NCBI GenBank assembly: GCA_027618565.1
Contig: JAQCEQ010000004.1
Location: 1-64,000 of the forward strand
Origin: Planctomycetota bacterium
GTDB lineage: Bacteria; Planctomycetota; Phycisphaerae; Phycisphaerales; SM1A02
Direction of reading: 5' to 3'
DNA: 64,000 bases
A model generated the notes under the pieces. The model had not been told where the DNA came from. It searched no databases and saw only the letters and a list, made by a program, of their open reading frames with translations. Within the stretch, counting starts at the first letter, position 1. Each line of letters starts with the position of its first letter. The translations under genes and the position numbers were made by a program. Below are positions 143-42,208 of this stretch, in pieces.

Positions 143-1834
143 TTGTCGCATTCCTCCCAATCCTCGAAACCCTCCACCGAAGCAGCGCAGCTCGTGGATG
201 GTGATACCCAGAGCAATGAGATGGCTTGCTCGGGCGATGGTCCGGGCGGTGGCATCGACGGATGCGGGACGCGGACGATCGGCATGAGCGACGCGTCGGG
301 AGTGTCGGACGCGGCCAACGGCGCCGACCAACCTCGCTGCGTGATGCTGGTCGCCAACCGCTTCACCCACGACACCCGTGTCGCCAAGGAAGCCGAATCG
401 GTTGCCAGCCTTGGCGTGGACGTGCACGTCATCGCCCTAGCGGGTGGCGGGCTTCCAGAGTTCGAGCCGCGCGGGACGGGCGGGCGGACCTATTCGATCC
501 ATCGCATTCGGCCGGGCAGCCGCTTGTCGGCCGTTGCGATCCTCATTCTCGCCCGATGGACGGAGTGGCCGCTGACCCATCGGCTTAAGCCCGACGACAC
601 GCCGTTCGTTCGACCGAGACCCGGACAGACGATGGCACCGCGTCTGGACTCTAGGGCGGGTTCCGACTCGGGAGCCAATTCGGGGGCGGCTCAAGGCGCC
701 AACGAAAACAAGAAGAGGAAGAGGCAAAAGGGCCAACTGCCGGTCACCCGTAGTTTGGGCGCGATCGTCACGTCGATCAAGAACTCCTGCAATCGCGCCC
801 TTCGGTGGGTTGCCCTGAGCGTTCCGAACACCGGGGTGGTGGCGACATGGCGTCCCATGATTTCCCGGGCCCTCTCGCTTCAGCCCGACGTCCTGCACGC
901 CAACGACCTGAACACCCTGCCTGCCGGCGCGGTGGTGGCAAGGCGGTGTCGTTGCGGTCTCGTCTACGACTCGCATGAACTTTGGCTGCACCGGAACATC
1001 GGCAGCCGCAGCCGATTCGTCGATCGGCTTGTATGGGGACGATTCGAGCGTTCCCTCATCGGTCGCTGCGATGCTGTGATCTCCGTTGCCGCAGGGATCT
1101 GCGAATGGTTGGCTAGGAAGTACGGCGTGCAGCACCCGCATCTGGTGCGTAATGCCCAGCCCTACGAGGCACCGCCGAAACGGGGGCGTGAGATCGCCGA
1201 CCGGATCGGCCTGACCGATGACGCGCCGATCTGCCTCTACGCCGGTGCGATCACGTTCAATCGCGGACTCGAGTTGCTCATTGAGGCGGCGGTCCACATG
1301 CCCGGCGTGCACATCGTGATCATGGGCTATGCGACCAACGCGGAGTACGAGAAGGGTCTTCTGTCGTTGGCTCGCGCCAACGGCACGTTGGATCGCGTCG
1401 TCCATTTCCTTCCCGCGGTGCCCCGCGAGGACTTGCTCGTATGGACCGCGTCGGCGGACCTGAGCGTCGTGCCCACCCAGGGCGTGTGCATGAGCTACCG
1501 CTTCGAGGCTAGCAACAAGATCTTCCAAAGCCTCATGGCGGGCGTTCCGTTAGCCATGAGCGATCACGAGGAGAAGCGGAGGCTGGTCGAGGAGTGGGGT
1601 GTCGGCGTCCTCTTCGACGAGCGCGATCCGAAGGCTATCGCCGATTGCGTGCTGCGATGCCTCGCCGACCGCGAAGGCATGGTAAGGATGCGCGAGAAGT
1701 GCCTCCTCGCCGCGCGGACGCTCAACTGGGAGCACGAGGAGGCCACGCTGCTGTCGATCTATCGCAGCGTGCTTGGGGCGCGCCGCATTGCCGCCGAGAC
1801 TAGCGTTCCTGCCCATAGCCAAATGCCGCATTGA
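143..1834 (+). CDS. GT4-family glycosyltransferase
   Basis: Predicted to move a sugar from a nucleotide donor onto a growing surface glycan at the cytoplasmic membrane. The protein has 563 residues. The first 65 or so are low-complexity, then a GT-B N-terminal Rossmann strand begins (VMLVANRFTHDTRVAKEAES). The acceptor domain contains LVYDSHELWLHRN. The donor domain contains PICLYAGAITFNRGLELLIE and the conserved acidic segment YRFEASNKIFQSLMAGVPL, which is the E-x7-E region of GT4 enzymes. The C-terminal helix LNWEHEEATLLSIYRSVL is also typical. The start is TTG at 143, chosen because AGAAGGA lies about nine bases upstream; ATG codons further in are alternatives. The 3' end overlaps the convergent sulfotransferase by 35 bases. 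Donor and acceptor sugars cannot be told. Confidence 0.85.
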   Translation: MSHSSQSSKPSTEAAQLVDGDTQSNEMACSGDGPGGGIDGCGTRTIGMSDASGVSDAANGADQPRCVMLVANRFTHDTRVAKEAESVASLGVDVHVIALAGGGLPEFEPRGTGGRTYSIHRIRPGSRLSAVAILILARWTEWPLTHRLKPDDTPFVRPRPGQTMAPRLDSRAGSDSGANSGAAQGANENKKRKRQKGQLPVTRSLGAIVTSIKNSCNRALRWVALSVPNTGVVATWRPMISRALSLQPDVLHANDLNTLPAGAVVARRCRCGLVYDSHELWLHRNIGSRSRFVDRLVWGRFERSLIGRCDAVISVAAGICEWLARKYGVQHPHLVRNAQPYEAPPKRGREIADRIGLTDDAPICLYAGAITFNRGLELLIEAAVHMPGVHIVIMGYATNAEYEKGLLSLARANGTLDRVVHFLPAVPREDLLVWTASADLSVVPTQGVCMSYRFEASNKIFQSLMAGVPLAMSDHEEKRRLVEEWGVGVLFDERDPKAIADCVLRCLADREGMVRMREKCLLAARTLNWEHEEATLLSIYRSVLGARRIAAETSVPAHSQMPH

Positions 1835-2669
1835 GTGCGCCGATGGCGGGCTCCGATGCGATTTCCCGCAGCCGGTCGGCGTGCCGGGGATCCTTCCAGC
1901 CGCTGACGCGAGCGACCGTGATCGGCTGGACGGTCATTGGCTGTCTTTCCGCCGAGGTCTTGGTCGTTGCCGATGGCGACTGATACCGATCGAGCATGCC
2001 CATATCAAAGGGCTCGCCGAGGAAGTCCAGTACCCTCCGCGCCGAGCTCGGCGGATCGGCAACGAAATCCTCGTATCGGACCACGAGGTGGCGAGGATGA
2101 CGGAAGTCACGAATGTGCCGCGCCGCCTCGCAGTATCGTTCGATCGAACAGTGATAGCCCCGAGCCTCGTCCAGCACCGAAGTGAGCACGCCGCGCGCGT
2201 CGCGCACGGTGCTGAGAAAGAAGAGCGGAGGTTGCTCTCTGCCGGAGCTCGAGACCAGCGCCCCGTCAAGAGCCGCGAGTCGCCCGTAGTGTTCGCAGTT
2301 GCGAGGCGACTTCTCCGCCCAGACGTCCTTGGCTATGCCGTGGGCAAAGACGAACGCGGCCATGAGCGCGTCGAAGCATTCGAGCTCGTTGTCCGCAGCC
2401 GCAATAATCGCCCGAACCGGTTCCAGTCCGATGTCCAGTACGCGGTCCGCACGACGTGCGGATCGTTCGAGCCCGGCGTGAGACTGGCGTTGCTTGAGCG
2501 GACGGAGAAAGAAGCCGGTCTCGTCCGGGCTCACGATCGTGCGCGAACCGTCGATCACCGTGCGCAGAAGTGACGAGCCCGAGCGGGGCATGCCACCGAT
2601 GATGAGTCGCTTGCGAAACCCGACGGCGGTGCCTTCGGACCCCGATGATGCGCGGTGACTACTCCTCAT
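1800..2669 (-). CDS. PAPS-dependent sulfotransferase
   Basis: Predicted to transfer sulfate from PAPS to a hydroxyl or amino group, probably on a glycan given the neighbours. It has 289 residues. The 5'-phosphosulfate loop is near the N-terminus (IIGGMPRSGSSLLRTVID). The region around STVRDARGVLTSVLDEARGY corresponds to the 3'-phosphate-binding motif, and a later VRYEDFVADP segment matches the family. The gene is last in a minus-strand run after the deacetylase-sulfotransferase fusion and the ABC-like fragment; its ATG overlaps the fragment's stop by 11 bases, so translation may be coupled. No clear ribosome-binding site marks the ATG, and a start nearer the P-loop is possible. The 3' end runs 35 bases into the end of the glycosyltransferase. 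Confidence 0.82.
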   Translation of the reverse strand: MRSSHRASSGSEGTAVGFRKRLIIGGMPRSGSSLLRTVIDGSRTIVSPDETGFFLRPLKQRQSHAGLERSARRADRVLDIGLEPVRAIIAAADNELECFDALMAAFVFAHGIAKDVWAEKSPRNCEHYGRLAALDGALVSSSGREQPPLFFLSTVRDARGVLTSVLDEARGYHCSIERYCEAARHIRDFRHPRHLVVRYEDFVADPPSSARRVLDFLGEPFDMGMLDRYQSPSATTKTSAERQPMTVQPITVARVSGWKDPRHADRLREIASEPAIGALNAAFGYGQER

Positions 2670-3102
2670 CGTCTACCGCGTCGTCCTCGATGTCGCTCGG
2701 GGCGTCTGAGCCGAATCGCGGTCTGAGGGTCGAGCGAACCGAGTCGTACCACGAGTGGGGGCCGATTCCAAGAACGCCCGACTCGTCGAGCAAGGCGACC
2801 CAAGCGGCCCCGGGCGGCGCTGGCCGTGAGGGTTCGATCAGCGGGAACAGAAGGCGCGGAGGCTCGCGGAGGAGGGCGATCGTCTCGGGTTCGGCTGTCC
2901 GCAGCACGGCCTCGCTCATCACCAGAACCGGACGATCGGCGAGGAGCGCGCCCAGGATCAGCCGACCACGCGGCGCATTACGATCGGCCGAATACTGTCC
3001 GACCCAATGGGTATGGCGCTGACGGTTGCGCTTCGTGTCGCCGAATGCGCTGAGAATTGATTGGTCATCGAGATTGACCCAGTTCGCGCCGCGCGTCACC
3101 AT
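2659..3102 (-). CDS. C-terminal half of a degenerate ABC-type ATP-binding domain
   Basis: The 147 residues read like an ABC ATPase from the Q-loop onward. IAMVTRGANWVNLDDQSIL (partly upstream of the ATG) resembles the Q-loop region, QYSADRNAPRGRLILGALLA sits where the LSGGQ signature and following helix lie, PVLVMSEAVL matches Walker B with Ser in place of the Mg-binding Asp, and WVALLDESGVLGIGPHSWYD matches the usual region after the H-loop. Walker A and the upstream half are missing; the frame is closed by a stop about 60 bases upstream. The acidic C-terminus (DIEDDAVDDEE) recalls the tail of the 628-residue ABC-like protein at 9344-11230. The gene overlaps both neighbours by a few bases. 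It could be the remnant of a lost exporter or a kept partner domain; ATP hydrolysis is very unlikely. Confidence 0.55.
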   Translation of the reverse strand: MVTRGANWVNLDDQSILSAFGDTKRNRQRHTHWVGQYSADRNAPRGRLILGALLADRPVLVMSEAVLRTAEPETIALLREPPRLLFPLIEPSRPAPPGAAWVALLDESGVLGIGPHSWYDSVRSTLRPRFGSDAPSDIEDDAVDDEE

Positions 3103-5219
3103 CGCGATCGAGGGCGGCGAGACCAGATCGGGGCCGCAGCCAGCGCGAGGGGCGCGGACTTATCGAACAGCGGCAGCATTTCCAAACGAAGGGACCTGAG
3201 GTGAATCCGCGGCGTGTTCGCCGGCGTCGGCGACTTCGGGATATACAACGCCAGATTGAACCGCTGCGCGTCCGGCCTCACGCGAAACGTGAAATCGATG
3301 CGATCGCCGGCGGCTGGCGCGGGCTGGCACGGGCCGAGCAGTTGGAGCGATCGCTTCTCCAGCAGATCGCCGGCGCGGTCGTACATCAGGCAGAACAGCG
3401 TCGCCTCGTTGGCGTCGATGCTCGCGTCGAGCGAGCCGCGATAGTAATGCCCCGGTTGCGTGGCCCACCCCGCGACTTTCTTCAGACGATTCCAGGCGGC
3501 GCCGGCGAACAGCACGTGCGCATGCCGCTCCGGGTCGGGGACGATCTTGATCGACCCGTTGACGGCGCTGGCGCGGCACCCGACGAGCGACAGGTGCTCG
3601 GGGACCTGTCCGCCGCCGAACGACGTTTGGGTGACAAGCTGGGGCGTGGCGTTGGCGACGCCGGCGTGGAGGATGGCGGCCAGGGTCTCGTCGATGAGGC
3701 CGCTGCGCACTCCCGCCGTACGCGTCCCGACGTAGCCCAGCTTTTCCAGGATCGGATCGCAGATGCCGTGATACGTTCGCACCAGGGCTTCGGCCCAGTC
3801 GTCGTAATGCGGGAAGATATCTCTTCGGCCGACGTTGATTTTCTTCTCGTGCTCCACCACGGTCAGCCGCGGGTAAACCGCGATTCCCATGTCGCGGAGT
3901 TGCTCGATCAGATATTTCAGGTCGCGCACCATGCGCTCGAAGACCAGCGTCCGATGCGCCGCATCGAGCAGCGTCTCGTTGGTCAGCCGGGCATACCAGC
4001 AGGCTTTTTCGAAGCGGGAGAGACGATCCCACCCGTCCAGCGGCAACGGAGGATGCCGGCGGTCCTCCGGCGTGTCGTACCAGTCCCGATTCAGGACCGA
4101 TCGCACAACGTCCTTTGGATCGCGGACCAGATGGACGAAAATTCCTTCAGGGAAAATGTATCGCAGCGTCGGCAGAAAGCGGTCGAGGTAGACATTGGCC
4201 TCGCCCTGGTCGCCGCTCTGTGTTTCCATATACGCTCGCGTCTGTCCCAGCAGGTCCTTCACTTCCGCGGTGTCCTTGACGAGATCAGCGAAGTTCACTC
4301 CCGTGCGCTTGGCCGCGATGAGCTTTCCGTCGCGATATGCGTGGTTGAGCATGAACTCGTGGCGCGCCGTCAAGCTGGTCGCGCGATCGAGGAAATTTGC
4401 CAGCCATTGGGATCCCGATCGCGCGGTTGAGAGAAAGAAATAATACTTCTGCGGCCCGCGCCAGTAGATCGGGTGCATGAGGATCTGCGCGCGTCCACTG
4501 GTCAGCGGATGGTCGAGCGGGTCGTCGCTGCGGTTCCAGTCCCCGCCGCTGTCCGTGAAATACTGGTCGTGCGGCACGTGCCAGGCGTGGTATTCCAGGC
4601 CGAGTTGCTGCATGGAGACCGACCAAAGCGCAAGGCGCCGGCCATCGGCGTTCCGCTTGATCGCGTTGATCGCCGGATACTGGATGCGGTCCTGCTCGCC
4701 TTCAACGCGAACGCCCTCGGCGGTGCGGCCGGACTCCTCGGTCGTGGGGTCGGCAGGACGCAGCTCTCGAAAAATCCAGTAGTTGATGAACCCGCGTTCA
4801 TAGCATTCCCGGTCCCCGTGCGCCGCCGTGCCGATGATCCGAACGCCCGCCTGCCGGAGCGGTTCGAGCAACTCGGCCAAACGTTGTCCGACGTCGGAAA
4901 CCTGCCCCTGCACCCATTCGGTCAGCACGTTGACATGCAGCCCGACCTCGTGCCCGAATTCCTGGATCTGGAGGCATTTCTGCGCCAGCCGCGGGTCGTT
5001 CCAATACGGCGCGGTGTGCAGCAGGAAATACGTCGCGCGCACTCCGCGCTGGTGCTCCCAATGGCTCATTTCCATCGCGAAATCGAGATCGTAATCCACG
5101 TCGTGCCGCAGCGCCACCAGCCGTTTGCTCTGGCGGTCCTGGTGCAGCTCGCCGACCGTCACCGTCTGGCCAAAGTGATCGAGGTAATCGTAATAACGGG
5201 CGTTGATGGACATATGCAT
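3096..5219 (-). CDS. Fusion: NodB/WbmS-like deacetylase + sulfotransferase + C-terminal beta domain
   Basis: A 707-residue protein with three parts. Residues about 35-255 are a polysaccharide-deacetylase-like domain with RHDVDYD (Asp40 and Asp42) and GHEVGLH (His90 and His95) as likely metal and catalytic positions, ending at LMHPIYW. Residues about 257-500 are a PAPS sulfotransferase with the P-loop FFLSTARSGSQWLANFL and the 3'-phosphate motif VHLVRDPKDVVRSVLNRDW. Residues about 540-690 look like a beta-sandwich of carbohydrate-binding type, which is only a guess from composition. The fusion suggests removal of an acetyl group and sulfation on the same sugar, as in N-sulfation; this is inference. 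ATG at 5219 is preceded by a possible GGGAGAG-type sequence. A truncated glycosyltransferase end lies directly upstream on the same strand. Confidence 0.75.
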   Translation of the reverse strand: MHMSINARYYDYLDHFGQTVTVGELHQDRQSKRLVALRHDVDYDLDFAMEMSHWEHQRGVRATYFLLHTAPYWNDPRLAQKCLQIQEFGHEVGLHVNVLTEWVQGQVSDVGQRLAELLEPLRQAGVRIIGTAAHGDRECYERGFINYWIFRELRPADPTTEESGRTAEGVRVEGEQDRIQYPAINAIKRNADGRRLALWSVSMQQLGLEYHAWHVPHDQYFTDSGGDWNRSDDPLDHPLTSGRAQILMHPIYWRGPQKYYFFLSTARSGSQWLANFLDRATSLTARHEFMLNHAYRDGKLIAAKRTGVNFADLVKDTAEVKDLLGQTRAYMETQSGDQGEANVYLDRFLPTLRYIFPEGIFVHLVRDPKDVVRSVLNRDWYDTPEDRRHPPLPLDGWDRLSRFEKACWYARLTNETLLDAAHRTLVFERMVRDLKYLIEQLRDMGIAVYPRLTVVEHEKKINVGRRDIFPHYDDWAEALVRTYHGICDPILEKLGYVGTRTAGVRSGLIDETLAAILHAGVANATPQLVTQTSFGGGQVPEHLSLVGCRASAVNGSIKIVPDPERHAHVLFAGAAWNRLKKVAGWATQPGHYYRGSLDASIDANEATLFCLMYDRAGDLLEKRSLQLLGPCQPAPAAGDRIDFTFRVRPDAQRFNLALYIPKSPTPANTPRIHLRSLRLEMLPLFDKSAPLALAAAPIWSRRPRSRW

Positions 5220-5421: not shown

Positions 5422-6351
5422 ATGGCCGGCGACGGAGCCTGCATTGACTCACGACCGATGTTGTTTCCCTGTGGGATGTCCCGATCGGGCACCACGCTGC
5501 TGGCGACGGTGCTCGACTCGCATAGCCAAGTCTCGCTGGGATACGAACTTATCCCCCCGGCGCTGCCCGGACCGGCGGAGCTGCTGGCGGCGCTGGACAG
5601 GGGCCTGAAGTTATCGGACGGCGACTTTTCGACCGCGGGAAAGGCCCTTCGCAAGTCCGGTGAAAACGACGCCGGTCTGTTCATCACCCGCTGTTGTCGC
5701 GCCGGAATCGACGCCGACGACACCCGCCGCATCCTCACCGGCCTGCGCGACGAGGGTCTGACCAGAATCGCAACGTTCCGCGAACGCCTGACAGTCGCGT
5801 GGCGCATCGCCAAGGCCGGCCAGCAGAAGACCGGCGCCCAGCTCTTCGGCTTCAAGCTCAACATCCCTTCATACGAACAGTCGTACCAGTTTTTCCCCGG
5901 CGGATATTTCATCTACATCCTGCGCGACCCGCGCGACGTCGTTGCCTCGCACCGCGAGCGCGAGTTCGATCGTACGATGGAAGAAATCTGTAGCGCGTGG
6001 ATGAACTACACCGAAGCGTTCGAGAAGTTCAACAAAGCGCATCCGAAGATCAGCGTGCTGGTGCGCTACGAAGACCTTGTCTCTGACCCGCGCGCGACGA
6101 TTGGCCGGATGTTCAGCATTCTGCCGATTCCGCTGGAGGAGCAGGTCTTCCGCTTCTACGACTCCAAGGCCACCAAGCGGATCGCGAACCACCCGAACGC
6201 CGAAAATCTGCAAAAAGACTTCTTCAGCACGAGCGTGGCTCGCTGGGAAAAGGATTTGTCGGATGACGATGTTGCCCAGATCACCGCCCGATGTGGGGGG
6301 AAGATGGCGCAGTACGAGTATCCAACTGTCAAGGCATCCTCTGTGGGATGA
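5422..6351 (+). CDS. PAPS-dependent sulfotransferase (tandem copy 1)
   Basis: Predicted to sulfate a glycan or other acceptor using PAPS. It has 309 residues. The N-terminal loop PMLFPCGMSRSGTTLLATVL is the 5'-phosphosulfate motif and YILRDPRDVVASHRERE is the 3'-phosphate motif; VLVRYEDLVSDP follows at the expected distance. The ATG at 5422 has AAAGGA a few bases upstream, which supports this start. It is a close paralogue of the gene at 6514: both share FPCG(M/I)SRSGTTLLATVLD, RDPRD(V/I) and the ending pattern NAENLQKDFFSTS versus NTENLKKGFFTDS. Copies 1 and 2 are separated only by an inverted repeat. It reads away from the minus-strand fusion gene. Confidence 0.85.
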   Translation: MAGDGACIDSRPMLFPCGMSRSGTTLLATVLDSHSQVSLGYELIPPALPGPAELLAALDRGLKLSDGDFSTAGKALRKSGENDAGLFITRCCRAGIDADDTRRILTGLRDEGLTRIATFRERLTVAWRIAKAGQQKTGAQLFGFKLNIPSYEQSYQFFPGGYFIYILRDPRDVVASHREREFDRTMEEICSAWMNYTEAFEKFNKAHPKISVLVRYEDLVSDPRATIGRMFSILPIPLEEQVFRFYDSKATKRIANHPNAENLQKDFFSTSVARWEKDLSDDDVAQITARCGGKMAQYEYPTVKASSVG

Positions 6352-6513: not shown

Positions 6514-7485
6514 ATGCTGCTCCGTCGATTGATTCACGATTACATCCTCCCGGTCAGAATCATCAGCGAAGAGCCGATGGTCTTTCCGTGCGGGATTTCG
6601 CGCTCGGGTACGACGCTGCTGGCGACGGTGCTCGACGCGCACAGCAAGATATGCCTGGGCTACGAGCTTCTCCCGCCGCCGCTGGCGGGGGTCGAGACGG
6701 TCCTGGGCAAGCTGCGCGATGGAATGACGCTCGCCCACAACGATTTCGCGCGGGCGGGGTCGCATCTGCGCAAAGGCGGCGACAAGGACATCGGCCAATG
6801 GCTCAGCCGCTGCCATCGAGCCGGCACCACTGCCGAAGATGTCGAAGAGGTCCTGAAAACGTTGATCGGCCAGGGAAGGACCGGCCTGACCACGATGGAA
6901 GAGCGCCTGCGACTCTGCACGATGGTCGTGCAAAAACCGCAAAAGCGAAACGGCTCGCTGCTCAGCGGGTTCAAGTACAGCGGGCACCGTTTCGACGACA
7001 GAATCGCGGCGTTCCCCAACGCCTCGTTCATCTACATCCTCCGCGACCCGCGCGACATCATCGTTTCCATGCGCGAGCGCGAATTTGACCGTACTCTGAG
7101 TCAGATCTGCGGCGACTGGAACCGGCACCTGCACAGCTTCGAGACGTTTCTGGCCAGGCATCCGAAGCAGGCGGCAATGATCCGATATGAAGATCTGGTC
7201 AGCCAGCCGATCGAGACGATCGGGAATTTTTTTTCCGTCCTGCCGGTCAATCCGGAACCTGCGGTGTACGAATTTCAGAACTCCACGGCGACGGTGCTCA
7301 ACAGCCGGCACCCCAACACCGAGAATTTGAAGAAGGGCTTTTTCACGGACAGCATCGGCCGCTGGCGGACGCAGCTTCAGGCGCCTGACGTCGCCGCGAT
7401 CGAGCGCGAGTGTCAGCGGGACATGCCTCGGCACGGATATGACCTGAGTTCGACGAATCACAAACCCATGACCACAGCAACCTAA
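6514..7485 (+). CDS. PAPS-dependent sulfotransferase (tandem copy 2)
   Basis: A 323-residue sulfotransferase and a paralogue of the gene just upstream. The phosphosulfate loop is PMVFPCGISRSGTTLLATVL, the 3'-phosphate motif is YILRDPRDIIVSMRERE, and MIRYEDLVSQPIETIGNF follows. The start is uncertain. ATG at 6514 adds a 21-residue leader that the sister protein lacks in this form, and the DNA just upstream is the inverted repeat with no evident ribosome-binding site; the ATG at 6577, just before VFPCG, is possible. It is followed after 12 bases by the deacetylase gene, consistent with one operon through the ABC-like gene. Sulfation of a different position than copy 1 is plausible but not shown. 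Confidence 0.83.
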   Translation: MLLRRLIHDYILPVRIISEEPMVFPCGISRSGTTLLATVLDAHSKICLGYELLPPPLAGVETVLGKLRDGMTLAHNDFARAGSHLRKGGDKDIGQWLSRCHRAGTTAEDVEEVLKTLIGQGRTGLTTMEERLRLCTMVVQKPQKRNGSLLSGFKYSGHRFDDRIAAFPNASFIYILRDPRDIIVSMREREFDRTLSQICGDWNRHLHSFETFLARHPKQAAMIRYEDLVSQPIETIGNFFSVLPVNPEPAVYEFQNSTATVLNSRHPNTENLKKGFFTDSIGRWRTQLQAPDVAAIERECQRDMPRHGYDLSSTNHKPMTTAT

Positions 7486-7497
7486 CAGACCACCGCG

Positions 7498-8346
7498 ATG
7501 GCAAAGTACCCGACGTACAAACTGCCCTGGGCAAAAATCACCGCCCAGAAGCTCCTGTTCAGCCGCCGGCGGAAGTACAACCCCGACGACTATCAGAAGC
7601 TGCTCGAACCATACATGAAGACCCACGAGAGCCTCCGCCTGCGGGATTACGTGCGCGAAAAGAGCCTCGACGGACGCAAGATCCTGATCATCCGCCACGA
7701 TGTCGATCACGATCACCTGACTGCGGTGAAGATCGCCAGGTGGGAGCGCGACCGCGGCCTTAACACGACGTACTGCCTTCTCCATACGGCGTGGTACTAC
7801 GGCGAGCTGACTGACGGGCGCTATCGTCACACGCAAGATGTCCTCGACGCCGCCCAGCAGATCGTCGAGCTTGGGCATGAGGTGAACTTTCACAATAACC
7901 TCGTGGTGCTGGCGCTGACCGAAGGCATCGACCCGCGGGCGATGCTCCGCGAGGAGCTGGATTTTTTCCGCAGTTACGGCGTTCCCATCGTCGGCACCAG
8001 CACGCACGGCGATGCCCTTTGCCGCGAGCTCAACTTCCGCAACTGGGAACTGTTCAAGGAATGCTGCGATGACCGCTTCGGCGGGCCGCGAACGGTTGCG
8101 TTCAAGAAGCCGACTGGCGGCCAGTCGTCGATTGAGCTCGGCAAGCTGTCGATGTTCGATTTCGGCCTTGAATACGAGGCCTACGACATCGCCCGCGATC
8201 TCTACCACACGGACAGCGGCGGAAACCTCCGCCTCCGGGAAAACACCCGCGGTCGAAAGGACTTTGGAAGAACGGACAAGGAATCCGGCCAAGTCGTCGG
8301 CGTGCTCACGCACCCGATATGGTGGGATTTCAACGATGCCCGGTAA
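7498..8346 (+). CDS. NodB/WbmS-like polysaccharide deacetylase family protein
   Basis: Predicted to remove an acyl group from an amino sugar, with a divalent metal. It has 282 residues and no signal peptide, so it probably acts in the cytoplasm on a precursor. RHDVDHDH (Asp68 and Asp70) and GHEVNFHNN supply the Asp-His-His type metal site, PIVGTSTHGD follows, and LTHPIWW closes the domain. It is a paralogue of the first 255 residues of the fusion at 3096-5219: compare RHDVDYD, LLHTA, GTAAHGD, HTDSGGNLR versus FTDSGGDWN, and HPIYW. The stop overlaps the probable start of the FkbM gene by 11 bases, pointing to coupled translation. Confidence 0.75.
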   Translation: MAKYPTYKLPWAKITAQKLLFSRRRKYNPDDYQKLLEPYMKTHESLRLRDYVREKSLDGRKILIIRHDVDHDHLTAVKIARWERDRGLNTTYCLLHTAWYYGELTDGRYRHTQDVLDAAQQIVELGHEVNFHNNLVVLALTEGIDPRAMLREELDFFRSYGVPIVGTSTHGDALCRELNFRNWELFKECCDDRFGGPRTVAFKKPTGGQSSIELGKLSMFDFGLEYEAYDIARDLYHTDSGGNLRLRENTRGRKDFGRTDKESGQVVGVLTHPIWWDFNDAR

Positions 8347-9340
8347 AGGAATGAAATGTTTTTATGATCTACTGGTCTACAGAGTCGATCGCTTCCTCGA
8401 CGCGCATTTTTTGAAGCGGTTTGAACCCGCCGTGCGGCCGAAGCTGGTGCGCCTGGCGGAGCTGCGCGGGGAGACGCCGAAAGAGGTGGTGCGCAGGTTC
8501 AGGAAAAAGAAGATCCGGCGCATTCCGCCGAGCATTCTCAAGCACACGCATATCCTGCTTGCTGCCAAGTTCGTCGAAGCCGGCGAACGCGAGGGCGTGC
8601 CGTTCGTTCGTCTGGAGAACGGGCGGATTTTCTACGGGCACCCGTCGCGCAAGCAGCACGAGCGCGAATTCGCGTTTCTCGCCGACAAGCTCTCGCCTTG
8701 CCTGACGCCGTGGACGTACCTGACCGCCAAGGACGTTGCCATCCGCTATCTGCACGACAAGTGGTATCCGGAGAAATACCTCCCCGGCCCCGGCGGGACG
8801 ATCGTCGAGGTCGGCGCTTACGTCGGTCACAAGACGATGCGATTCGTCGATCAGCACGTCACGACCAGCGGCAAGGTGCTGGCGATCGAGGTCATGCCGG
8901 AGAACATCCCGATCCTGAAGCGCAACATCGCCGACAACGGGATGCAGGCGTGTATCGATGTGATGCACTGCGGCGTTTGGCGCGAGCCGGGGCGGCTCGC
9001 GGTCAAAGGAATGGGCCGGCAGCGCAATTCGCTGGTCAGCATCGATCATCTCGACCGCGAAAACGAGGCGGTGGTCCCCACGGATACGCTCGACAATATC
9101 CTCGTCAAATGGGACCAGCCAAAGGTCGATTTCATGATCATCACGGTCAACGGCGCCGAGATCGAGGTGCTACAGGGCCTGGACAAACAGCTTCACCGGA
9201 TCAAGGTCCTGTACATCGCGGCCCATTTCAAGCGCGACGGCAAGCCAACGCGCGACATTTGCCTTGATATGCTCCGCAAGAAGGGGTGCAAAATCTTGAA
9301 TGAAGGCCAGGACGCGGGCATCTATGCGCAGTGCTCTTGA
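8336..9340 (+). CDS. FkbM-family methyltransferase
   Basis: Predicted SAM-dependent O-methyltransferase, commonly found in surface-glycan and polyketide clusters. From ATG 8336 it has 334 residues. The SAM-binding part is GGTIVEVGAYVGHKTMRFV followed by KVLAIEVMPENIPILKRNI, which carries the acidic end of strand beta-2. The later VDFMIITVNGAEIEVLQGL matches the FkbM pattern DxxxIDVEGxExxVLxG, but with Thr-Val-Asn-Gly in place of the usual Asp-Val-Glu-Gly, so the catalytic details may differ. The frame stays open much further upstream, but that stretch is inside the deacetylase gene and is not used here. ATG 8336 overlaps the previous stop; ATG 8351 is an alternative. The N-terminal 120 residues are not recognised. 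Confidence 0.72.
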   Translation: MPGKGMKCFYDLLVYRVDRFLDAHFLKRFEPAVRPKLVRLAELRGETPKEVVRRFRKKKIRRIPPSILKHTHILLAAKFVEAGEREGVPFVRLENGRIFYGHPSRKQHEREFAFLADKLSPCLTPWTYLTAKDVAIRYLHDKWYPEKYLPGPGGTIVEVGAYVGHKTMRFVDQHVTTSGKVLAIEVMPENIPILKRNIADNGMQACIDVMHCGVWREPGRLAVKGMGRQRNSLVSIDHLDRENEAVVPTDTLDNILVKWDQPKVDFMIITVNGAEIEVLQGLDKQLHRIKVLYIAAHFKRDGKPTRDICLDMLRKKGCKILNEGQDAGIYAQCS

Positions 9341-9343
9341 GGC

Positions 9344-11230
9344 ATGACGGAACGCCGAATGAATTCAGAAACCTCATCTGCTGTTCCGCACTCCGAGCCT
9401 TCCGCCGCGACTGCGCCGGATGCCGATGCGAATCTCCACTTCGATGCCGGGACGAAGCTGTCGCGCTACACCGCGTTCCTTCGCTGGATGGCATCTGATG
9501 CGTTCTGGCGCTTCCGCTGGCTGGTTATCGGCGTCATCGCCGCCGGCGCGGCGGCGGTGGCGCTTCAGATCAAAGCCATCGCGCTCACCATCTACTACAC
9601 GCATCTGTTCGAGGACAACAAAACCTTTACGCTCTTCGGCCACAGCTATCACCCACGGGAATCGATGGCGCTGCTGCTGGGATTTGGCAGCGCGGTGTTG
9701 GTGGCGCTGGTCATCTCGGCCGTGCTACAGTATGCGTCGCGCGTATGGACGCTGTTGCTCCGGCGCCGCTACGCCGAGTTCTGCTCGATCCGAGTGCTGG
9801 CGATCCTGAAAGGCGCGCCGCACACCGTGCCCGGCAGCCCGTTGCGGTTCGACGACGCCACTGCCACGGCGTTGGTGCGCAGCGAATCGCTGTATTGCGG
9901 CAGAATGGTTTCCATCGCCGTCGGCGTCGTCACACCGGCCATCTGTTTCATCGCCTCCGTCGGCGTGCTGTTCTACGTTCATTGGACGCTGACGCTCCTG
10001 CTCGTCGGGATGATCGGCGTCTGCTCGATTTTTCTCTATCGGGTCAACGTGAAGGGCGCGCTCTATTCGCACCTGGCGGAAAAGCACGGCCGCGGCGCCG
10101 TCGCCGAATACCGCAGGATCGTCCAGGCCCACAAGTCGGCCATCATCGTTCAGCGCGACTTCGACGCTGAAACCTCGGTGCGCTCCGACCCGATCAAGAA
10201 CTATTTCGACGCTTACATGGTCCGCCTGCGCGTCGTCGCCGACAGTGAATTGATCGGCAATATCTTTCTCGGCGTCGTGCTGGCCATCAGCATGGTCGCG
10301 CTGGGCCGCGGCGCGATCCTGCGCGGCAGCGGCTGGGAAGGCATGGTTGCCTATCTCGTCGCGTTGCGCTACGCGCTTGTGACATTCCGCGGTGGCGTGC
10401 GGACGATCACGTCGTTCAACCGCTTTTATCCGCAGGTGCGGCGATACTTCGATTTCGTCCGCTGGTCAGTTGAATCCGACGCCCCGCCCGCGCCGCTGCC
10501 CGCCAGCGTCGGGCTGCGATGCCCGTCGCCGAAATTGGAAGGCTCGCTTCGCAAGTTCATCATCGATTCCCATGGCCGGATCGCGCTGTGCGCCCCGATT
10601 GATTTGAATCGTTACACCTTGCCGTTCATCATCCGCTGCATGATCGGAAACGACCCTTCGCTGGTTCGCTCGATCGTTGCCAGCGCCGCGTGGGCGACGT
10701 CGTCGTTCCGATTTCCGCCCGGCCCGATCAGCCGGTCCCCCGGATTCGACGACCCGTCTTTCCAAAGAGATTTCGACGCTCTGGCCGCCGGCAGCGGGCT
10801 GGAGCAGAAAATCGCCGATCAGTTGTCCCAAGGCCTCGCGACTCCCATGCCCGAAGTCGACCGCGACGGGATCAATCCTGCCATCAAGTTTCTTTTCAGC
10901 CTCGTCCCCGTGTTTCGCTCACGGGCCAGTTGGGTTTTTCTCGACGGAAACGATCTGGCGGCGCTTGAAGTCGATGCGCGGAAGCAAGTCCTGGACCGCC
11001 TGGCGGGACGGGTCACGGTCATTCTTTACAACGAAAGCCTGGCCGGCGTCGGCCAATCCGGCGAGCAGGTCGTCGCGGTCCACGACGCCGCCGAACAGAT
11101 CGCCCTCGGGCCGATCTCCTGGTTCAACGAGCATCGCGGGCAAATCCAGCAGATCGTGCTGACCGCCATCCCCTCGCGCAAGGCCCGTATCGACGATGAC
11201 GACGACGACGATACGGACGACGACACGTAA
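9344..11230 (+). CDS. ABC-exporter-like membrane protein with degenerate ATPase domain
   Basis: A 628-residue protein with the layout of an ABC exporter half-transporter. Residues about 45-375 hold roughly six membrane segments (for example 58-75, 108-129, 188-212, 214-232, 302-320, 333-347), with long helices between. Residues about 390-610 follow the ABC ATPase fold but have lost its motifs: at the Walker A site HGRIALCAPIDLNRYTLPFI has Arg423 where the Lys should be and no glycines; QGLATPMPEVDRDGINPAIK replaces the signature; ASWVFLDGNDLAALE keeps Asp534 but has Gly for the catalytic Glu; VTVILYNES lacks the switch His. The C-terminus is a run of aspartates (617-628). It probably does not hydrolyse ATP itself. 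A heterodimer with an active partner, a scaffold, or decay towards a pseudogene are all possible; the intact 628-codon frame argues against simple decay. Confidence 0.65.
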   Translation: MTERRMNSETSSAVPHSEPSAATAPDADANLHFDAGTKLSRYTAFLRWMASDAFWRFRWLVIGVIAAGAAAVALQIKAIALTIYYTHLFEDNKTFTLFGHSYHPRESMALLLGFGSAVLVALVISAVLQYASRVWTLLLRRRYAEFCSIRVLAILKGAPHTVPGSPLRFDDATATALVRSESLYCGRMVSIAVGVVTPAICFIASVGVLFYVHWTLTLLLVGMIGVCSIFLYRVNVKGALYSHLAEKHGRGAVAEYRRIVQAHKSAIIVQRDFDAETSVRSDPIKNYFDAYMVRLRVVADSELIGNIFLGVVLAISMVALGRGAILRGSGWEGMVAYLVALRYALVTFRGGVRTITSFNRFYPQVRRYFDFVRWSVESDAPPAPLPASVGLRCPSPKLEGSLRKFIIDSHGRIALCAPIDLNRYTLPFIIRCMIGNDPSLVRSIVASAAWATSSFRFPPGPISRSPGFDDPSFQRDFDALAAGSGLEQKIADQLSQGLATPMPEVDRDGINPAIKFLFSLVPVFRSRASWVFLDGNDLAALEVDARKQVLDRLAGRVTVILYNESLAGVGQSGEQVVAVHDAAEQIALGPISWFNEHRGQIQQIVLTAIPSRKARIDDDDDDDTDDDT

Positions 11231-11346
11231 GAAAAAAGATTGAAGTCTCCTCCGGCTCACGTCCAATAATCCCAAACAGGTCTTGCGCGACATGGATGCC
11301 GCGCAGCAAGTACAGGAATTGGACTGAACTGAACCGGAGGTTCATT

Positions 11347-11544
11347 GTGAAAAGCAGGTTGATTTACGGGGTGGCGTTGTTGTCGTTGGCGGTTGTGGCA
11401 GCAACGGGATGCGCGAAGAAGGGGAACACTGCGGGAACGAATGGCTCGGCGTTGGACATCTCGTCCCCGCCGCCGGCCGTCGCCTACGAGCCGCCCGTCG
11501 CCGACCCGGTCACGGTCATCGGTGCTTGGGGGACGGCTGGCTGA
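11347..11544 (+). CDS. Small lipoprotein, probably truncated
   Basis: The start is GTG at 11347 with GGAGG seven bases upstream. The 65 residues begin with KSRLIYGVALLSLAVVAATG and a Cys, a lipoprotein-type signal, then a short Pro-rich segment (SSPPPAVAYEPPVADPV). The reading frame ends abruptly with VTVIGAWGTAG. Planctomycete lipoproteins with this kind of start usually continue into a LysM-type domain, which is missing here. The end coincides with the change of DNA signature near 11.5 kb, so the gene may have been cut by a rearrangement or assembly junction. Function unknown. Confidence 0.5.
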   Translation: MKSRLIYGVALLSLAVVAATGCAKKGNTAGTNGSALDISSPPPAVAYEPPVADPVTVIGAWGTAG

Positions 11545-40361: not shown

Positions 40362-41261
40362 TCAGCCGAATCGGCCGGTGACATAGTCCTCAGTCTGCTT
40401 CGTGGCAGGCTTGGTGAAGATCACTTCGGTCTCGTTTTCCTCGATGAGGCTTCCCTCGAAGAAGAATGCGGTACGGTCTGAAACGCGGGATGCTTGCTGC
40501 ATGTTGTGGGTCACGATGACGATGGTGTAGGTGTGGCTCAATTGCGCGATGAGCTCTTCCACGCTCGCGGTGGACTTGGGGTCCAGCGCCGAGCAGGGCT
40601 CGTCCATGAGCAGGACCTCGGGATCGACCGCAATCGCGCGCGCGATGCACAGGCGCTGCTGCTGCCCCCCCGAGAGCCCCAGCGCGCTTGCTGAAAGTCG
40701 ATCCTTGACCTCATTCCAGAGTGCGGCGCCGCGGAGGCTTCGCTCCACCAGGTCATCCAGGTCGGCGCGCTTGTAGATCCGGTGGAGTCGAGCGCCGAAA
40801 GCGACATTGTCATAGATCGACTTCGGGAACGGATTCGGCTTCTGGAACACCATGCCCACGCGTCGGCGAAGGTCCACGACATCCAGCGTCCGGTCCAGGA
40901 TGTCCTCGCCGTCCAGGAGCAACTCACCGGCAGCCTTGGCGCCTGGAATCGTGTCATTCATCCGGTTCATCCATCGCAGGAAGGTGCTCTTGCCGCAGCC
41001 CGAAGGACCGATGAGCGCCGTCACCGCCTGTCGAGGGACCCGCAGCGAGATTGACTTGAGCGCTTGGAAGTTGCCGTAGAAGCCATCGAAGTTCCTGGCC
41101 TCCAGGCACACAGCCGTGGATGCACCGGTGGGCTCAACCGCCGGCGCCCCCATTGGTCCGTTGGCGGTCGGTCGCTCGGTCGAGTTCATCGGGGAGGGTT
41201 GGCTCATTCGCGATGGGTGGAGGGGCGTGGCACGGGAAGCGGTCGCCGCGGGCGGTGTCAT
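40362..41261 (-). CDS. pstB: Phosphate ABC transporter ATP-binding protein
   Basis: Drives phosphate import. From ATG 41261, which overlaps the pstA stop (ATGA), it has 299 residues with an N-terminal extension of about 40; ATGs at 41207 and 41189 are alternatives. The ATPase motifs are intact: Walker [22 protein letters not shown]-loop [19 protein letters not shown], signature [19 protein letters not shown], Walker [17 protein letters not shown] and H-loop [16 protein letters not shown]. It serves as an in-window contrast to the degraded ABC domains at 2.7-3.1 and 10.5-11.2 kb. Confidence 0.95.
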
Positions 41262-42208
41262 TGCAGTGGCTTCTGGAGTCGGAGCCGCAGGGCCACGGCG
41301 GTGCCATTGAACACGATCAGCAGCCCCAGCTGCACCAGGATGGCCGCGGCCGCGATGGAATGGAAGCCAGCCTGAGGTCGTCCGGCCCAGTTGAAGATCT
41401 GGAGCGGCAGGACGGTAAAGCTGCTCATGAGGTTCTCGGGAGTCCTGAAAATGAGCAGCGCCGCGCCGACGACGAGGAGTGGCGCCGCCTCGCCGATGGC
41501 CCGGCTGATGGCCAGGATCGTCCCCGTGAGGATCGTCGGGATGGCCGCCGGCAGCGTCAGGCGCCAGACCGTCTGCCATGTCGTCGCCCCCATCGCGAGG
41601 GAGCCTTGGCGAATCGTGCCGGGCACGCTTCGGATCGCCTCCTGGCTGGAGACGATGATCATCGGGAGGATGACCAGCATCAGGGTGAGCCCCGCGGCCA
41701 GCACGCTTGGGCCGAAGGGGAGCTGGAGGAACCAGAAGCTCTCGCTGTTGCCCAGGACCACAGGATCGTCGGAGCGGAACAGCCCAAACATCCGCGAGAA
41801 TGCGGTGAGCCCGATGATGCCGTAGACAATCGAAGGCACGCCGGCCAGGTTGGTGATGTTGAGCTGGATGAACCGCGTGAGCCGATTCTTGGGAGCAAAT
41901 TCCTCCAGGTACAGCGCGGTGCCGACGCCGATGGGTATGGCCGTCAGGGCGCAGGTCACCACGACCCAGAGGCTGCCAAAGAGCGCAGCCTTGATGCCTG
42001 CCTTGTCCGGCTTGCGGCTGGCGAAGGAGTCCAGGAAGTCCCAGGAGAGTCGATCCCACCCGTCAAACGCGACTGACATCAGCAGCACGCACAGCACCAC
42101 CACCGCCGAAGTCGTGGCCAGCAGGCACAGCGCGAGGAACGCGCGGTTGCGGAGCAGGAGCCGCGCCGGGGAGACAGGGGTGCCTGGGATGGAGGAGATG
42201 TCGCTCAT
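41258..42208 (-). CDS. pstA: Phosphate ABC transporter permease PstA
   Basis: A 316-residue inner-membrane permease with about six helices. The binding-protein-dependent permease loop is [20 protein letters not shown] followed by [20 protein letters not shown], which contacts PstB. The N-terminal part has [20 protein letters not shown]. It overlaps pstC upstream and pstB downstream by four bases each. Confidence 0.94.

Follow-up and report, generated by a model that had tools for sequence, protein, structure and literature searches.

A conserved Planctomycetota family of ABC-exporter-like proteins with a predicted inactive ATPase, encoded among sulfotransferase and glycosyltransferase genes

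The locus and its exporter-like protein

The window (the whole stretch of 64,000 nucleotides under analysis) begins with a gene for a GT4 glycosyltransferase (143..1834, + strand; PF13439, 3e-14), a recurrent neighbour of the protein described below, accompanied by three genes for sulfotransferases matching PF13469, at 1800..2669 on the − strand (1e-18, match at 2004-2606) and at 5422..6351 (1.4e-18) and 6514..7485 (1.3e-19) on the + strand. The gene at 3096..5219 (− strand) encodes a deacetylase-like domain, having conserved HDxD and H/D motifs, joined to a sulfotransferase domain that matches PF13469 at 6e-5, below the cut-off. This combination is conserved across Planctomycetota, being also found in L016, L019, L069 and L116, and it follows the same domain order (deacetylase then sulfotransferase) as the animal heparan sulfate NDST. 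A stand-alone deacetylase-like protein (7498..8346, + strand) shares the HDVD motif and 32% identity with the N-terminal domain of 3096..5219. The Pfam search gave no match for this protein and no significant match in the PDB was obtained for the deacetylase-like domain, whose putative deacetylase activity is suggested by its motifs. Next, an FkbM methyltransferase is encoded at 8012..9340 (+ strand; PF05050, 7e-13), its true start probably lying downstream of 8346.

The following gene (9344..11230, + strand) is an intact open reading frame encoding 628 amino acids, as the preliminary description had read it, and was recovered in the family search with an E-value of 2e-206. Its product is a pseudo-ABC exporter (hereafter pseudo-ABC), having a transmembrane domain (TMD), a pseudo-nucleotide-binding domain (pseudo-NBD) and an acidic tail. 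The AlphaFold2 model, built from the alignment of its relatives (pLDDT 84.4, pTM 0.80), possesses six long transmembrane helices followed by a C-terminal α/β domain similar to an NBD. The TMD (9446..10474, + strand; helices within residues 30-372 of the model) has the type IV ABC exporter fold, and Foldseek aligned the model over its full length to MsbA, TM287/288 and TmrAB (E 1e-13 to 8e-16). At the sequence level, the protein has a weak Pfam match to ABC_membrane (PF00664) and none to ABC_tran, and the MsbA model TIGR02203 matches the TMD at 1e-4, far below the cut-off of that model. Regarding the pseudo-NBD (10508..11191, + strand), a profile of 22 such domains matches the MsbA NBD at 8e-9, and hhalign relates them to intact NBDs with 95.9% probability, placing the sequence APIDLNRYT exactly over the Walker A sequence GPNGCGKTT. 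The six-helix exporter topology and the ABC ATPase outline previously proposed are therefore upheld by the model, the fold search and the profile comparison, including the ABC fold of the C-terminal part.

The preliminary description had also stated that every catalytic motif of the ATPase was lost, which holds for the Walker A glycines, the signature, the catalytic Glu and the switch His, all of them replaced, but not for the Walker B Asp, retained as D534. The reported residues were found at the same positions: APIDLNRYT at 417-425 (10592..10618, + strand, by the profile alignment), Gly at 535 and Asn at 563. An Arg occupies the position of the Walker A Lys, as in 70% of the relatives, and the Walker B Asp is present in 64% of them. 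The protein ends with the poly-Asp tail IDDDDDDDTDDDT (11189..11227, + strand), a trait common to the family, with Asp in 10 of its last 12 residues, in agreement with the Asp-rich ending noticed before. A phage origin of pseudo-ABC was considered and dropped, as the PHROGs search gave no match. Downstream, a small open reading frame (11296-11544, + strand) carries a lipoprotein-like signal, VAATGC, as seen by eye.

An old family with repeated reduction of the ATPase domain

Searches at the levels of family, order, class and phylum, taking the window's genome as reference, recovered more than 35 relatives. They are known from the sequences of their assemblies, and most share 16-36% identity with the window protein, the nearest having 36% identity over the TMD. 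Several families within Phycisphaerales are represented among their hosts, together with two further families of the same class, the lineage G705 and the family f69, identified as anammox bacteria by hydrazine synthase alpha in three of six genomes tested. The distribution is patchy: when 392 genomes were sampled throughout the phylum, 12 carried pseudo-ABC. None of the more than 35 relatives bears Walker A or the LSGGQ signature at the right place; by inspection, loose motif matches in L062, L044 and L097 fall away from these sites. One of these, L097, is a divergent second relative within a single genome (G469), lacking both the acidic tail and matching neighbours. A further exporter-like reading frame devoid of Walker A, possibly related to the family (L052, in G131), is truncated by the end of its contig.

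For the closer pairs of relatives where it could be computed, the window protein not being among them, dN/dS indicates purifying selection, with 0.14-0.32 overall, 0.19-0.45 for the C-terminal domain and the lowest values, 0.09-0.27, for the TMD, although some pairs approach saturation at synonymous sites. Conservation within the family is also strongest in the TMD, where Trp331 is invariant and Arg141, Arg150 and Arg360 are conserved, and the family alignment reveals conserved Trp and Gly residues close to the C-terminus of the pseudo-NBD. Pseudo-ABC is an old conserved family of Planctomycetota; a recent pseudogene is ruled out by the family-wide conservation and by dN/dS. No earlier description of such a family was found in the open-access literature searched, nor of a pseudo-ATPase exporter in sulfated-glycan loci, as the preliminary description had supposed.

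Besides its altered motifs, the ATPase domain also varies in extent. A full-size pseudo-NBD is kept in most relatives, the C-terminal region is much shorter in four of them (L048, L049, L051 and L056) and the NBD is nearly absent in two (L042 and L065), so that several stages of NBD loss stand side by side. The model of the short member L048 (alignment A3) had a pLDDT of 54, too low to be informative. In the TMD tree, pseudo and short forms group together apart from the intact exporters (SH-aLRT 95); when SbmA is included, the intact exporters are supported with 100/98 and the split of pseudo plus short forms with 75/90. The short and NBD-less forms are placed at separate points of the tree, giving six state changes in all, one of them being the change between intact and pseudo, which leaves about five reductions or losses of the NBD, an approximate number because several rows of the tree have long branches.

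Where the NBD was shortened or lost, both the TMD and the acidic tail were retained. This acidic ending is characteristic of the family: within the last 20 residues, 33 of 34 relatives bear 5-14 Asp or Glu, compared to a mean of 2.1 and a maximum of 7 acidic residues in 293 neighbouring proteins. The family as a whole, this common tail and a second, decayed copy in the window (see below) go beyond what had been noticed from the single gene. Since possession of an ATPase is what defines ABC transporters, a widespread family that keeps the membrane machine and discards the motor stepwise would illustrate the conversion of a primary transporter into a protein of another kind.

Glycan genes around pseudo-ABC

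Considering the genes within 8 kb of pseudo-ABC in 40 loci, sulfotransferases were found in 23, GT4 glycosyltransferases related to that of the window in 22, deacetylase-like or deacetylase-sulfotransferase proteins in 14, AsnB-type amidotransferases in nine, epimerases in seven and heparinase II/III-like proteins in three. The check previously recommended, counting motif loss together with neighbouring sulfotransferases, extends the observation from one gene to a family. Counting PF13469 proteins, 4 of about 7 lie within 10 kb of pseudo-ABC in the window's genome and 4 of about 8 in the anammox genome G747. For these two genomes and G013, a rough Poisson P for the clustering is near 1e-6 to 1e-7, a value that does not control for the general clustering of glycan genes; the excess was not significant in G010, G032 and G033. 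No sulfotransferase was detected within 8 kb in the loci L061, L063 and L064, where AsnB and epimerase are present. In one clade, the AsnB-type amidotransferase directly adjoins pseudo-ABC (L072, L074, L075, L080, L082, L083 and L088); these proteins have 682-714 amino acids where complete, and a NAD epimerase is often present too.

In G013, the deacetylase-sulfotransferase and pseudo-ABC form a single open reading frame of 1311 amino acids (L016:8974-12909), a fusion that occurs once, in one draft assembly. The genes for pseudo-ABC, deacetylase-sulfotransferase and GT4 adjoin each other again in G413, which belongs to a different family of the class; there, the deacetylase-sulfotransferase is 46% identical to that of the window (3096-5219). 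Other neighbours include a D-glucuronyl C5-epimerase (PF06662; L076:286-1773), one gene from the short pseudo-ABC L051; Wzz, a polysaccharide export protein and an initiating sugar transferase by L042; and Wzy-like proteins adjoining two copies from the anammox family f69. In this family, the pseudo-ABC genes of L109-L114 are located directly amid sulfotransferase and glycosyltransferase genes, making them candidate loci for the sulfated extracellular polymeric substances (EPS) of anammox granules, in which sulfated glycosaminoglycans (GAGs) have been reported, according to work cited in PMC10483923.

The clustering of sulfotransferases with glycosyltransferases seen here is the pattern by which a sulfated-glycan biosynthesis locus is recognized, and similar clusters of sulfotransferases with GT2/GT4 are described for the sulfated GAG-like EPS loci of Pontiella, also PVC bacteria, in a text that mentions neither an ABC transporter nor a flippase (PMC7356697). 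The gene content suggests that pseudo-ABC loci are engaged in sulfated-glycan assembly, with a hint of GAG-like products from a few enzymes (the C5-epimerase and the heparinase-like proteins). Pseudo-ABC would then point to candidate gene clusters in which bacteria make sulfated GAG-like polymers, a synthesis that is poorly understood, also in the anammox bacteria of wastewater granules, and its dead NBD and acidic tail offer a sequence handle for finding more of them.

Regarding membrane proteins, pseudo-ABC is the only one with at least four predicted transmembrane segments in most loci. Wzx flippases, which would carry out the corresponding step of an EPS pathway, have a MATE-like fold unrelated to ABC exporters; none of the Wzx type was found within about 18 kb of pseudo-ABC in those tested genomes that have large contigs, and MATE/MurJ-like proteins are encoded elsewhere in all of them.

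Possible roles of a non-hydrolysing ABC-fold protein

The fold, the neighbouring glycan genes and the conserved family are consistent with the first proposal of an ABC exporter that does not hydrolyse ATP and is encoded among sulfated-glycan genes, the absence of hydrolysis being predicted from motif loss. Tentatively, and with a confidence somewhat short of an even chance, we favour an ATP-independent ABC-fold membrane protein on which cytoplasmic tailoring enzymes dock and through whose TMD the glycan passes, in glycan assembly lines that are mostly sulfating. Two copies would form a dimer of six plus six helices, with the sulfotransferase, the deacetylase-sulfotransferase and the glycosyltransferases docking at its cytoplasmic face, by direct fusion in one species and elsewhere perhaps via the acidic tail. 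The docked enzymes would modify a lipid-linked glycan at the membrane, which could then cross the TMD in the absence of ATP hydrolysis at pseudo-ABC, driven by an ion gradient or by its removal and polymerisation on the far side. The pseudo-NBD would be a leftover dimer and docking surface, which lineages can shrink or drop.

This proposal is supported by the family-wide loss of Walker A and LSGGQ, the repeated NBD reductions with TMD and tail kept under low dN/dS, the sulfotransferase clustering with the G013 fusion and the G413 synteny, and the position of pseudo-ABC as usually the sole polytopic protein of a locus having no Wzx nearby. There is also a precedent in SbmA/SLiPT, a proton-driven, ATP-independent ABC-fold transporter lacking an NBD (PMC13316013). 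However, the Wzx-type flippases elsewhere in the genomes mean that a flippase role is not required, the acidic columns conserved in at least 60% of the sequences, as assessed by alignment, form no obvious SbmA-like ladder in the transmembrane helices, and the fusion comes from one draft assembly; L097 and the three loci with no sulfotransferase detected within 8 kb also count against the proposal.

Comparing pseudo-ABC with SbmA/BacA, both have the membrane fold of ABC exporters and no functional NBD, but SbmA, a peptide importer with TM0 helices and a glutamate ladder, has no NBD at all, whereas the window protein has a pseudo-NBD. The window protein has no Pfam match to SbmA_BacA and, in the tree, SbmA joins YddA and not the pseudo-ABC family, a placement that carries a long-branch warning. 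A more specific proposal, possible but less secure than the general one, is an origin separate from SbmA, giving an ATP-independent ABC-fold translocator for sulfated lipid-linked glycans, with the poly-acidic tail docking or regulating the sulfating enzymes. Meanwhile, type IV exporters such as MsbA, BmrA and TM287/288 share with pseudo-ABC the fold, the length, the six helices and a sequence-detectable NBD, but pseudo-ABC lacks their Walker A, signature, catalytic Glu and switch His, bears the acidic tail and, judged from these motifs, gives no sign of ATPase activity.

In a pure scaffold, the TMD would have given up transport and serve as a membrane anchor bringing sulfotransferases, deacetylases and glycosyltransferases together at the lipid-linked glycan, the flipping being left to a distinct Wzx or ABC system. 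The G013 fusion, the persistence of the acidic tail after NBD loss and the Wzx-type proteins elsewhere would all suit this reading, which is somewhat less likely than the favoured one; still, conservation is highest in the TMD, with its invariant Trp, conserved Arg residues and the lowest dN/dS, and mere anchoring would not require a complete exporter TMD. The available sequences do not separate transport with docked enzymes from a pure scaffold. The two roles advanced in the preliminary description, a scaffold for sulfotransferases or deacetylases and an export device powered otherwise, may both be true at once, the former being suggested by one natural fusion and by tight synteny.

The remaining role in that description, half of a heterodimer that does not itself hydrolyse ATP, is disfavoured; even with an intact partner exporter located at another place in the genome, it appears quite improbable. 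Such heterodimers with one degenerate site are well known, ATP being held at that site (PMC7756269), and the window's genome encodes two intact type IV exporters elsewhere. TmrAB, BmrCD and TM287/288 likewise combine a degenerate NBD with a partner having the working site. However, known degenerate partners keep Walker A and still bind ATP, whereas in pseudo-ABC the P-loop is gone, and some relatives have no NBD altogether. An adjacent intact ABC partner was sought and none was found in about 40 loci, where the only gene with both Walker A and signature encodes an unrelated SufC-like ABC ATPase (L072, approximately 7.5 kb off); in the 64-kb window, the only such gene lies at 40365-42062.

Slightly less plausible again would be a nucleotide or metabolite sensor, in which the TMD would be gated by a pseudo-NBD still binding a ligand such as a nucleotide or PAPS through the frequent Arg and the Walker B Asp. 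The conserved Trp and Gly near the C-terminus would agree with this, but the P-loop glycines and signature are gone and several lineages have a reduced domain or none.

Finally, a decaying pseudogene or sequence artefact, to which the motif loss and a decayed second copy might point, is hardly credible: the frames stay open in over 35 divergent relatives, dN/dS lies clearly below 1, and the tail and the synteny are shared. This second copy (2659..3102, − strand) is a remnant of 147 amino acids overlapping the end of the deacetylase-sulfotransferase gene, and it matches the pseudo-NBD profile (E 3.9e-9) and the full-length profile (E 3.7e-7). Its larger part corresponds to the second half of the pseudo-NBD and it has its own acidic end, DIEDDAVDDEE. 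At the same place, G106 has a full pseudo-ABC, G013 the fusion and G107 an N-terminal fragment with a full copy downstream, for which an assembly error is possible. Considering the window remnant and the G107 fragment, two-copy loci with one decayed copy seem to recur.
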